From contig NZ_JAUNLS010000009.1 of NCBI RefSeq assembly GCF_030532325.1, forward strand, positions 29,207-93,206: a stretch of 64,000 nt of DNA. The letters run 5' to 3'. Below the pieces are notes generated by a model. It did no database searches, had not been told where the DNA came from, and was given only the letters and a program-made list of their open reading frames with translations. Positions 24,585-29,794 of the stretch are shown piece by piece. How positions within the stretch are numbered: position 1 is the stretch's first letter; every line of letters begins with the position of its first letter. The position numbers were made by a program, and so were the translations under genes. Origin of the DNA: Corynebacterium sp. Its GTDB lineage: Bacteria > Actinomycetota > Actinomycetes > Mycobacteriales > Mycobacteriaceae.

Positions 24585-26376
<1,792 letters not shown>

Positions 26377-26463
26377 TGACCATCTTGGCACCGGCCGGTG
26401 GCGAGTGCAAGATGTGACGCGCACGCCTAAAGCGATCAGGGGGCCGACCGTGCGTCCCCACAG

Positions 26464-26561
26464 TGTGCAGCAAACTGCACAGATCCCGGAACAACGGTCC
26501 GAGTTTGCAGTTTTCTGCAAAGATTCTTCCGCTTTCCGCCATCTTTGCATTAAAGTGCAAA
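26464..26561. promoter_or_regulatory. Three TTTGCA-N6-TGCAAA operators at 40-bp spacing
   Basis: Site 1 (26464-26481) is TGTGCA-N6-TGCACA. Sites 2 (26504-26521) and 3 (26544-26561) are TTTGCA-N6-TGCAAA. All arms are perfect and centres are exactly 40 bp apart. Site 3 covers a TAAAGT -10 box (26551-26556) that lies eight bases before the ATG of the ATPase gene, so binding would block initiation of a leaderless transcript. Confidence 0.7.
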
Positions 26562-26564
26562 GAC

Positions 26565-27779
26565 ATGAAGCTTGTGAGCCGCCAGCACCTCCTTGCCCAG
26601 CTCCACGCCTGGGATAGCGACCCCGCGCTTGACGATGCCATTCGGGTCATCACCGGAGTCCGCCGCTGCGGAAAGTCAAGCCTCCTGCGCCTCTACGAGG
26701 ACTCCCTCGACGGAGCGCACGTTCTCTCACTCAACTTCGAGCTGCTCTCCACGCAATCGCTGCGCGAGAGCAGCGCTTTCCACGCCGTCGTCATGCAGGC
26801 TTACCGCGAGGAAGGCATCACCCATCTACTGATCGACGAAGTCCAGGAACTGGAAGATTGGGCGCGCACGGTCAACTCCCTGCGGGCAGAAACCGATCTC
26901 CGCATCCTGGTGACCGGTTCTAACGCCTCCATGTTTGCCGGCGAGGGAATGACCTACCTGGCCGGACGCTACGTCGAACTCGAGGTGCTACCGCTCAGCC
27001 TGGCGGAATTTCAGCGTTTTCGCGGCGAGGAGCTGCCCGCGGAGAGCGCCTATGCGCAGTGGATGAAGGGCACACTGCCCGCCGCCGCGCTCGCCACGGA
27101 GTCCTCCCACCCACAGCTGAACAATGCTGTCTTTGACTCCATTTTCACCCGGGACATCGCCATGCGCGGGGCCATTCAGGAACCCGCGGTGTTCCTGCGC
27201 GTAGCTCGCTTTGTCTTCGATAACGCGGGCTCGCCGCTGTCAGTTAATCGCATTGCTGGCACGCTCACCTCAGCGGGATTCAAAACGTCCAACCACACCA
27301 TTGAGCGCTATCTTCAGCTCATGGTGGACGCACACATGTTCTACGCGTGCCGCCCCTACGATCTGCGCGGCAGGGAGCACCTGCGCAGCCGCGGAAAGTT
27401 CTATTTTGTTGATCCCGGGCTGCGCGACGCCCTCCTCGGGGAACGCACCAGCAACAGCGGCCACGACCTGGAGAACATGGTCTATCTAGAACTGCGCCGC
27501 CGCGGTTACGCGGTCAGCGTCGCCCGCAGCGGGAACCAAGAAATTGACTTCATGGCCACCAAGGAGCAGCACACCACCTATATCCAGGTAGCACTCAGCG
27601 CGCTCGATGAGGACACCTTGAAGCGGGAGCTTTCCGCTTTTGCTGGTGCGCCCACCGGAGCGCGCTGTGTGCTGATCACGTTCGACCGCCTGCCGCTCAA
27701 CACCGGAGCGGTGGAACACCTCAACGCCGGAGATTTTCTCCTCGGCGCTGATTTGTTGCGTTCCTCGGCAGGCCTCTAG
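26565..27779 (+). CDS. AAA_14/DUF4143-type ATPase
   Basis: A 404-residue protein of the AAA-type ATPase group with a C-terminal DUF4143 region. Walker A is GVRRCGKSSLL at about 31-41, Walker B is LLIDEVQEL at about 88-96, and the sensor segment is ILVTGSNAS. The C-terminal third (LENMVYLELRRRGYAVSVAR, then GNQEIDFM) resembles a restriction-endonuclease-like fold with a D/E-x-D core. The family is widespread and patchy in bacteria and archaea, and its role is not established. The ATG at 26565 is chosen because the operator and -10 box lie just upstream, and the 34 extra in-frame codons are low-quality. It is a single gene. Confidence 0.88.
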   Translation: MKLVSRQHLLAQLHAWDSDPALDDAIRVITGVRRCGKSSLLRLYEDSLDGAHVLSLNFELLSTQSLRESSAFHAVVMQAYREEGITHLLIDEVQELEDWARTVNSLRAETDLRILVTGSNASMFAGEGMTYLAGRYVELEVLPLSLAEFQRFRGEELPAESAYAQWMKGTLPAAALATESSHPQLNNAVFDSIFTRDIAMRGAIQEPAVFLRVARFVFDNAGSPLSVNRIAGTLTSAGFKTSNHTIERYLQLMVDAHMFYACRPYDLRGREHLRSRGKFYFVDPGLRDALLGERTSNSGHDLENMVYLELRRRGYAVSVARSGNQEIDFMATKEQHTTYIQVALSALDEDTLKRELSAFAGAPTGARCVLITFDRLPLNTGAVEHLNAGDFLLGADLLRSSAGL

Positions 27780-27802
27780 CCCGCCGAGCTTGAGTGTCTG
27801 GG

Positions 27803-29794
27803 CTAAGCCGCCGCCTCCTGCGGCTCGCTGGCCTTGCGGGTACGCGAGCGCGTCCAGCGGTAGACAAAGGCCACGCCGGCCACGAAGAGAACAATGCCCA
27901 GCACGTTGGCGCTGGTGCCGCCCTCGAAGATCTCCAGCGGGTTCTCGCCACCGGAGGCCGCGATGATGGCGGCGTTGACCACACCGAAGAGCGATTCACC
28001 CACCACCAGGCCGGTGGCCAGGAGGGTGCCCATGCGCTTGGCAAAGTCCGGGCTGGCCTGCTTGGCGGCCCACTTGTTGTAGAGGAAGCCCAGGAATGCG
28101 CCGATCGGAATGATGATGGTCAGCGAGGCCGGCAGGTACATACCCATGCCCACCGCCAGCGGGGAGAGCGAGTACTTGTCGGTGTACTTCTGCAGCAGCT
28201 CGTCGATGACGATGAGCACCGCGCCGATGCCAGCGCCGGTAAAGATCAGACCCCAGTCCAGGGAGCTATCAAAAATGCCCTGAGCCACCGAGGACATCAG
28301 CGCGGCCTGCGGGGCGGCCAGGGCGTCCTCGCCGGCGCCCTCCATGCCAGCAAAGCCGAAGCCCTCGAGCATGACCTGCAGGATGGGCGGGATGACGATG
28401 GAGCCAAAGAGCACGCCGATGATGAGTGCGACCTGCTGCTTCCACGGGGTCGCACCCACCAGCTGGCCGGTCTTGAGGTCCTGCAGGTTGTCGTTGGAGA
28501 TGGTGGCAATACCGAAGACGATGGCCGCGGTGAACAGGGTGTAGGCCACTAGGGAGAGCGGGTCGGCGTCGCTGCCGCGGGTCACGGCGGCGATGAGCAG
28601 CGAGGCGGCCAGCACCGCGATGATGCCCACGGAGGAAATCGGCGAGTTGGAGGCACCGATGAGGCCGGCCATGTAGCCGCACACCGAGGCGATGATGAGG
28701 CCCACCAGCAGGGTGAAGATCACGGAGACAGCGATGAGCACGCCCATGTGCTGGTGGATGTCCGTGCCGGAGACGAAGTCCCACAGCAGCCAGGCAATCG
28801 GCAGCATGAGCAGGACGATGGTGCCGATGACGTAGGGGAAGGGGATGTCGCGCTCGGTGATGTCGACTTCCTGGCCGGCCTTGCGCTGGCGGGAAGAGGC
28901 CAGGGACTCCTTGATGCCCTTGGCAATGGGGCCGGCGATCTTGAGCAGCGTCCAGATGGCGGCAATCGCCATGGTGCCCACGCCGATGAAGCGGATCTCG
29001 CTGGAGAAGACGGAGTCGACGGTGTCGGCCATGGTGGCGGCGTCGCCAATGAGCCCGGAGGTGTGCATCGGCAGCAGGAAGAAGTAGGAGATGATAACGC
29101 CCACCAGCATGGCGATACCCACCGGCAGGCCCACGAGGTGGCCCACGCCCACCAGCGCCATGGACAGCGAGGTGCCCAGGGTGGTCGCACCCGAGCCGAG
29201 CTTGAAGTAGGCGGACACCGAGGAGGCGGCGGCCTTCATCGCGGCCAGCAGGGCCATCACCGCGGAGACGATGCCGCCGGCCAGGATGACGCGCAGGCCC
29301 TGGGCGTTCTCCTCGTGGCCTACGCCCTCCTCGCCGTTATCGTCGCCCACGCGCAGCACCTCGGCGGCGGCCACGCCCTCGGGGTACGGGAGATCGGAGC
29401 CGGTAATCAGCGCGCGGCGCAGCGGGATGGAGTACATCACGCCGAGGATGCCGCCGATGGCGCACACCGCGGCGGTCTCCAGGAAGGAAAAACCCTGCCA
29501 GTAGCCCACCATCACCAGGCCGGGGAGGACAAAGATGATGGCGGAGAGGGTACCGGCGGCAGACGCGATGGTCTGCACGATGTTGTTTTCTTTGATGTTG
29601 TGCCCGGAGAACTTGCGCAGCACCGCCATGGAGATGACTGCTGCCGGGATCGAGGTGGCAAAGGTCAGGCCCACCTTGAGGCCGAGGTAGACGTTTGCCG
29701 CGGTAAAGACCAAGGTAATCAGGCCACCGATGGCAACGCCCCGGAGGGTAAGTTCGCGCAGGTTGGCCGTGGAACCTGAGGCGGTATTCGCCAT
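27803..29794 (-). CDS. Oligopeptide transporter, OPT family
   Basis: A 663-residue integral membrane protein with about 15-16 hydrophobic segments along its whole length. Typical OPT segments include ELTLRGVAIGGLITLVFTAA at the N-terminus, VYLGLKVGLTFATSIPAAVI, DLPYPEGVAAAEVL (the conserved PEG motif) and NDNLQDLKTGQLVGATPWKQQ. It probably takes up small peptides or metal chelates using the proton gradient. A GAAAGGA ribosome-binding site precedes the ATG. The neighbouring divergent M20 dipeptidase could process imported peptides (inference). Confidence 0.92.
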   Translation of the reverse strand: MANTASGSTANLRELTLRGVAIGGLITLVFTAANVYLGLKVGLTFATSIPAAVISMAVLRKFSGHNIKENNIVQTIASAAGTLSAIIFVLPGLVMVGYWQGFSFLETAAVCAIGGILGVMYSIPLRRALITGSDLPYPEGVAAAEVLRVGDDNGEEGVGHEENAQGLRVILAGGIVSAVMALLAAMKAAASSVSAYFKLGSGATTLGTSLSMALVGVGHLVGLPVGIAMLVGVIISYFFLLPMHTSGLIGDAATMADTVDSVFSSEIRFIGVGTMAIAAIWTLLKIAGPIAKGIKESLASSRQRKAGQEVDITERDIPFPYVIGTIVLLMLPIAWLLWDFVSGTDIHQHMGVLIAVSVIFTLLVGLIIASVCGYMAGLIGASNSPISSVGIIAVLAASLLIAAVTRGSDADPLSLVAYTLFTAAIVFGIATISNDNLQDLKTGQLVGATPWKQQVALIIGVLFGSIVIPPILQVMLEGFGFAGMEGAGEDALAAPQAALMSSVAQGIFDSSLDWGLIFTGAGIGAVLIVIDELLQKYTDKYSLSPLAVGMGMYLPASLTIIIPIGAFLGFLYNKWAAKQASPDFAKRMGTLLATGLVVGESLFGVVNAAIIAASGGENPLEIFEGGTSANVLGIVLFVAGVAFVYRWTRSRTRKASEPQEAAA

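Follow-up and report, generated by a model that had tools for sequence, protein, structure and literature searches.

Three palindromes at 40-bp spacing precede an ATPase gene

The stretch of Corynebacterium DNA that we analyzed (64 kb in length, hereafter the window) contains an ATPase gene, whose product we call P0001, and three palindromic sites immediately in front of it (Table 1). The sites are evenly placed, with start-to-start distances of 40 bp between sites 1 and 2 and 40 bp between sites 2 and 3, and the arms of sites 1 and 2 are 7 bp long. An initial annotation of this DNA had described three TTTGCA sites at exact 40-bp spacing; the spacing and the palindromes were borne out, but site 1 has TGTGCA/TGCACA arms instead. 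It had also placed the last site over a TAAAGT eight bases from the ATG, and the coordinates confirm this.

Table 1. Features of the ATPase locus, in window coordinates.
Feature	Position	Strand	Remarks
Segment with array and ATPase gene, between groEL2 and OPT-like transporter gene	26392..27870	+	Absent in 5/6 near relatives; edges approximate
Operator site 1, TGTGCAG-N4-CTGCACA, TGTGCAGCAAACTGCACA	26464..26481	+	Centre 26472.5
Operator site 2, TTTGCAG-N4-CTGCAAA, TTTGCAGTTTTCTGCAAA	26504..26521	+	Centre 26512.5
Operator site 3, TTTGCA-N6-TGCAAA, TTTGCATTAAAGTGCAAA	26544..26561	+	Centre 26552.5, ~12 nt 5' of ATG; overlies -10-like box
TAAAGT, -10-like hexamer within site 3	26551..26556	+	Eight bases 5' of ATG at 26565
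AAA_14/DUF4143 ATPase gene, 404 aa (protein P0001)	26565..27779	+	Pfam domains; PADLOC PDC-S01
Predicted winged helix-turn-helix (HTH), residues ~200-262	27162..27350	+	Weak matches; bounds by eye
Codon of His244, residue co-varying with half-site position 5	27294..27296	+	
PD-(D/E)XK-like motif region: E303, D328, Q341-V-A343; Ala in place of catalytic Lys	27471..27599	+	

Palindromes that are 18 bp wide and have perfect 6-bp arms occur 41 times in the window. They form a single equally spaced triple (spacing 20-80 bp), the array in front of the ATPase gene, and none of 200 shuffled windows (dinucleotide-preserving, 2-kb blocks) contained such a triple. Across the whole 2.49-Mb genome, TKTGCA-N6-TGCAMA was found at five exact places, comprising the three array sites and two isolated ones, and a genome-wide search for a 40-bp partner of the isolated sites found none, even at one mismatch. 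An isolated exact TTTGCA-N6-TGCACA (L386, G000:C33:130068) lies close to the 5' terminus of a reading frame that looks aldose-epimerase-like by eye.

As would be expected of an autoregulated protein, the palindromic operators lie over the -10/start region of the gene's own promoter. The position of the TAAAGT hexamer, under site 3 and eight bases from the ATG, suggests that the ATPase mRNA would be leaderless. A sigma-70 scan at the ATPase promoter gave no full promoter match, and an Rfam search of the window and of the leader returned no match. A separate inverted repeat, CTAGCACTTGGCCAATGCGAGTGCTAG, lies at window positions 26350-26376, upstream of groEL2; in appearance, it resembles a CIRCE/HrcA operator.

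P0001 matched PF13173 (AAA_14) at 95.9 bits and PF13635 (DUF4143) at 73.0 bits (cut-offs 27 and 28.1), and it matched PDLC04787, the PADLOC model for PDC-S01, with an E value of 5.5e-118, its residues 1-394 aligning to positions 6-408 of the 412 in the model. The predicted HTH rests on weak matches to HTH_12 (residues 219-255, E 0.13) and to the RpoN HTH (residues 228-259, E 0.15). The P0001 sequence had no match in the PDB, a family profile had weak matches there, and searches of NCBIfam and PHROGs with P0001 produced no informative match.

The C-terminus had initially been annotated as nuclease-like. The domain is present, but its catalytic Lys has been lost in clade C, the window's clade in the protein tree described below: E303 and D328 are retained and Q341 is present, and 0 of the 127 clade-C proteins have Lys at position 343. 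The Lys is found in all 31 proteins of clade A, all 20 of clade B and 68 of the remaining 71, and in none of the 15 of clade B2. Because it is missing throughout clade C, the domain in the window's ATPase is probably not an active nuclease. PDC-S01 is described as a family with a nuclease-superfamily domain (PMC12988326). The window protein departs from the PD-(D/E)XK catalytic residues at the Lys, though the PADLOC model itself may not demand them.

The array and the gene are present or absent together

No ATPase gene stands beside groEL2 in any of six near relatives, and in five of the six the groEL2 upstream region directly adjoins the OPT-like transporter gene. Whether by insertion in the window's host or by loss in the relatives, the array and the ATPase gene are one unit, present or absent as a whole. 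Because they behave as one unit, the binder of the array should be either the ATPase or a host factor. We looked for an adjacent regulator of the RptR, BrxR or CapW kind at this locus; no gene other than that of the ATPase accompanies the array in the segment absent from the five relatives, which lends no support to the XRE-type regulator suggested in the initial annotation.

Array spacing follows the protein tree

We gathered 303 HMM hits and retained 285 genes after dropping 18 without a Walker A motif, a start or 300 amino acids; removal of near-identical proteins and short upstream regions left 264. Seven loci gave no HMM hit. Additional loci were taken as parts of larger lists (40 from the DUF4143 list of the window's phylum, and 60 each from the lists of P0001-like genes in the family and in the class of an Eggerthellaceae locus), and 14 plasmid loci were used. 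The thresholds (13/18, 9/10 and score 33) were set after first looks, and the same ones were applied to controls where controls were run.

In the first set of P0001-like genes (n = 38), 66% had an 18-nt direct repeat with at least 13 identities at 40 bp and 21% had one at 39 bp; the corresponding values for control segments (n = 1695) were 0.2% and 1.0%. Other DUF4143 genes (n = 70) had spacing peaks at 22-23, 32-33 and 46 bp. A later set (L124-L207; 71 genes from Bacteroidota, archaeal and Eggerthellaceae loci and two Corynebacterium genomes) showed the first-set spacings in 30/71 genes, compared with 48/1176 controls, and six other spacings in 5/71.

On the tree, 79 of the 127 clade-C genes had a spacing of 39-41 bp (controls 89/3637), none had 22-23 bp and one had 32-34 bp. 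Spacings of 22-23 bp were found in 22/31 genes of clade A (controls 30/3637) and spacings of 32-34 bp in 27/35 genes of clade B and the mainly archaeal B2 (B 17/20, B2 10/15; controls 84/3637), the limits of clades A and B having been drawn with spacings in view, after first looks. The remaining 71 tree genes were less clear, with 16 at 32-34 bp, 5 at 22-23 bp and 2 at 39-41 bp. When changes of spacing class were counted on the tree, a test that is independent of where clades A and B were drawn, there were 7 changes among 151 labelled genes; 500 shuffles of the labels gave a mean of 60.1 and a minimum of 51. Spacing is a clade trait that follows the protein tree.

A direct or inverted repeat of some kind was present upstream of 119/127 clade-C genes, 62/74 held-out genes, 24/31 genes of clade A, 31/35 of B and B2 and 49/71 of the rest, and in 19-29% of controls overall (24% of 951 for the clade-C comparison). 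The held-out set consisted of 76 genes from 75 loci (L318 twice), 74 of them with enough upstream DNA for this count; a 40-bp palindrome pair was found in 17/76 and neither kind of repeat in 12/74. At L349, L355, L360, L316, L319, L362, L364 and L369, among 25 looked at by eye, the 40-bp pair gives way to a long inverted repeat that lies across the promoter region. Upstream of its start, the second DUF4143 gene of the window's host (L001, G000:C17:22435-25899) has direct repeats (CTGCAGAATGACG/A) 22 bp apart, about six in number and some of them degenerate.

Operator letters differ between relatives and between paralogs of one host

The initial annotation had also expected TTTGCA-type arrays in front of actinobacterial DUF4143 relatives, an expectation that did not survive the upstream search: no TGCA-N4-10-TGCA site was found in the 350 bp upstream of nine relatives, and in L003 and L004 a TGCA-type site lies within coding sequence instead. 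The seven actinobacterial members of these nine carry other palindromes at the same place, 39-40 bp apart; the palindrome pairs of L005 and L006 score no higher than the best shuffles. Palindromes of the types TGTCGA, TTTCAGG, TTACGA, TTTCCGA and AAGTTAA occur in Corynebacterium. We discarded the TTTGCA motif as a family-wide search key, which is misleading because relatives carry different palindromes.

A single Corynebacterium genome (G352) has five DUF4143 paralogs, each preceded by a different array. On a scale with a maximum of 10, operator similarity was 4.84 for same-genome paralogs (10 pairs) and 4.77-4.88 for distant proteins of different genomes (up to 60% identity), and it reached 7.0-7.5 above 60% protein identity (109 pairs). 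By this measure, the operator follows its own protein, not the host. Another genome (G342) has at least 23 DUF4143 matches, and the upstream repeats varied among the loci examined. In the literature searched, which was largely open-access and available in part, we found no description of operator arrays for the DUF4143/COG1373/PDC-S01 family.

A residue of the predicted recognition helix co-varies with an operator base

We tabulated residue 244 against the base at half-site position 5 in 79 clade-C genes; the palindrome score for this comparison was passed by 62/127 clade-C genes and 17/76 held-out genes, and by-eye readings in other clades were left out of the counts. Position 5 was C with Asp (18/18) and Glu (29/32), G with His (3/3), Lys (3/3), Ala (3/3) and Pro (2/2), and T with Asn (6/6). 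Thr (5 C, 1 A, 1 T), Gly (2 C, 1 A) and Ser (1 A, 1 T) were mixed. Among the residue-base pairs tested (positions 3-8; permutation with relatives collapsed), H244 and position 5 ranked first (z 5.9), followed by signals at L392 (z 5.8) and T30 (z 5.5); because these two come close, some of the H244 signal may be shared ancestry. A comparison of acidic with all other residues at 244 gave p 5e-5 (n = 38; relatives collapsed unless differing). In an entropy-matched MI ranking, H244 came sixth, behind five residues in the C-terminal tail, which aligns poorly, and the predicted HTH showed no enrichment (3 of the top 20, p 0.69). A prediction fixed before the new genes were viewed was right in 10 of 11 testable held-out cases, a test in which always guessing C would score 7/11 and in which some genes are closely related to members of the first set. 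These counts are suggestive of a residue-base code, short of proof.

At the level of sequence evidence, the dedicated array and autoregulation proposed at the outset are supported: the array is a family trait, comes and goes with its gene and varies in step with one residue of the ATPase's predicted HTH. A host-encoded regulator other than the ATPase could also be what binds the array, like RptR or BrxR/CapW. Separate small repressors with repeated sites are described for known defence islands (RptR; PMC12255303, in the text available). We find such a regulator improbable at the window locus. A host factor is argued against because arrays differ within one host, as with the five paralogs of G352, and the operators of the ten paralog pairs share nothing by host. 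The segment missing from the relatives contains no second gene, and one base of the operator changes in step with an ATPase residue.

The sites lie on the core promoter

Two copies of the site are present in 44 of the 62 clade-C arrays, three in 16, four in one and five in one. In 21 of these 62 genes the last site is centred 12 nt 5' of the assigned start; in the rest its distance is spread, with start codons assigned by script and some of them doubtful. Downstream of the arrays, we found 2 site copies in 16,230 nt. A TATA-like box is flanked by sites in several archaeal loci (by eye). In 92 gene pairs selected for a shared first site, the arms of the second site were 79% identical, compared with 36% for the DNA between sites; part of the former value follows from the selection of pairs, because the second site repeats the first.

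In the window's phylum, at least 51 of 149 genomes have a DUF4143 gene, as do 37/80 in the phylum of a Rhabdobacter locus and 30/81 in that of an archaeal locus. Within Corynebacterium, P0001-like genes occur in 24/201 genomes (E 1e-10) or 28/242 (E 1e-40); around an Eggerthellaceae locus, they occur in 70/138 of the family and at least 129/296 of the class, two samples that overlap. Relatives are present in 250 plasmid records, 173 of them from Acinetobacter, and in 21 of 50,697 phage records, and a pattern search of viral_contigs returned two matches, neither of them a relative. Several Corynebacterium genomes hold broken P0001-like fragments (L032, L038, L034, L035, L039 and L040), which suggests frequent gene loss.

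The arrays might instead belong to a mobile element, as iteron-, partition- or end-like sites that the ATPase would use for maintenance or movement and not for transcription control. The presence or absence of a single gene at the window locus, the sporadic spread through Corynebacterium, the plasmid records and the broken fragments all fit such an element. We nevertheless judge it unlikely, given that the sites overlap the core promoter at a recurrent distance from the start codon, flank the TATA-like box of several archaeal loci and are nearly absent downstream.

It is also conceivable, if very unlikely in our estimation, that the ATPase binds the array and activates its own promoter, or both represses and activates it. 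The two sites farther upstream, with centres ~52 and ~92 nt from the start, could act in activation, and the Thermus DUF4143 ATPase gene TT_P0211 is reported to be up 6.6-fold with plasmid DNA when Argonaute is present (PMC4406477, in the text available), but the last site of the window's array overlies the -10-like box itself. Chance palindromes or low-complexity promoter DNA can be set aside almost entirely: inverted repeats of 9/10 did occur in 16-24% of control segments, but the spacing-specific enrichment, the tree signal and the shuffled windows all stand against chance.

Discussion

We consider it likely that the ATPase represses its own promoter by binding a private operator that diverges fast. 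In the mechanism we propose, a two-fold ATPase unit would dock its putative winged-helix domain on each palindrome, where residues 242-244, at the N-terminus of the recognition helix, would read half-site positions ~4-6. Units at sites 40 bp apart would touch, probably via their AAA+ domains, leading to cooperative filling of the array. The filled array would cover the -10 box and the start point of a leaderless promoter, and the promoter would open once invading DNA, the ATPase's own nucleotide state or some other trigger had titrated or switched the protein.

We extend this proposal to the whole family only tentatively, with appreciably less confidence. The PDC-S01 genes (~39,500) may be private codes, that is, single-gene modules whose AAA+ product recognizes only its own array, so that many copies, such as those of G342, could share a cell without mutual silencing. 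The array would be both off-switch and sensor, the ATPase sitting on it and silencing the gene until invading DNA or another signal arrived, and pressure for non-interference would drive the fast joint divergence of operator and recognition helix. The family-wide array would name the DNA that each PDC-S01 protein should bind, and the proposed residue-base code, with a promoter reporter, would offer handles on PDC-S01 specificity and on the inducing signal. An effector-like ATPase would here be tied to transcription control without a separate regulator.

PDC-S01, which combines an ATPase with PD-(D/E)XK, is described as a PADLOC phage-defence candidate and as the fourth most common prokaryotic defence; the genomes analyzed there yielded 9986 systems in archaea and 29,494 in bacteria, and most PDCs still await validation (PMC12988326, in the text available). 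The portions of the PDC-S01 literature available mention no operator array and no tested mechanism. The window's ATPase resembles PDC-S01 in matching the model over nearly its whole length and differs from it in that its clade is without the PD-(D/E)XK catalytic Lys; a defence role would be consistent with the match and with the candidate status of the family. The reported induction of the Thermus DUF4143 ATPase gene with plasmid DNA fits a switchable promoter (PMC4406477, same text).

RptR is described as repressing a defence promoter via three direct repeats, with a short palindrome as its minimal site (PMC12255303, in the text available). The window's array shares with that island a putative defence promoter, three repeated sites and a short palindrome. 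RptR, as far as that text goes, is a separate small regulator with a highly conserved site, whereas at the window locus the ATPase itself probably does the binding, at a site that diverges fast.

BrxR and CapW are reportedly WYL-type regulators that control transcription of defence genes; they are encoded by separate regulator genes, whereas the window carries a single-gene module. Classical autorepressors bind palindromic operators over the -10 box, and the window's array has the same operator geometry and position. Unlike them, the regulator here would combine an AAA+ ATPase with a PD-(D/E)XK-like domain in one fusion protein, and the spacing of its sites is a trait of the clade, at 22-23, 32-34 or 39-41 bp.
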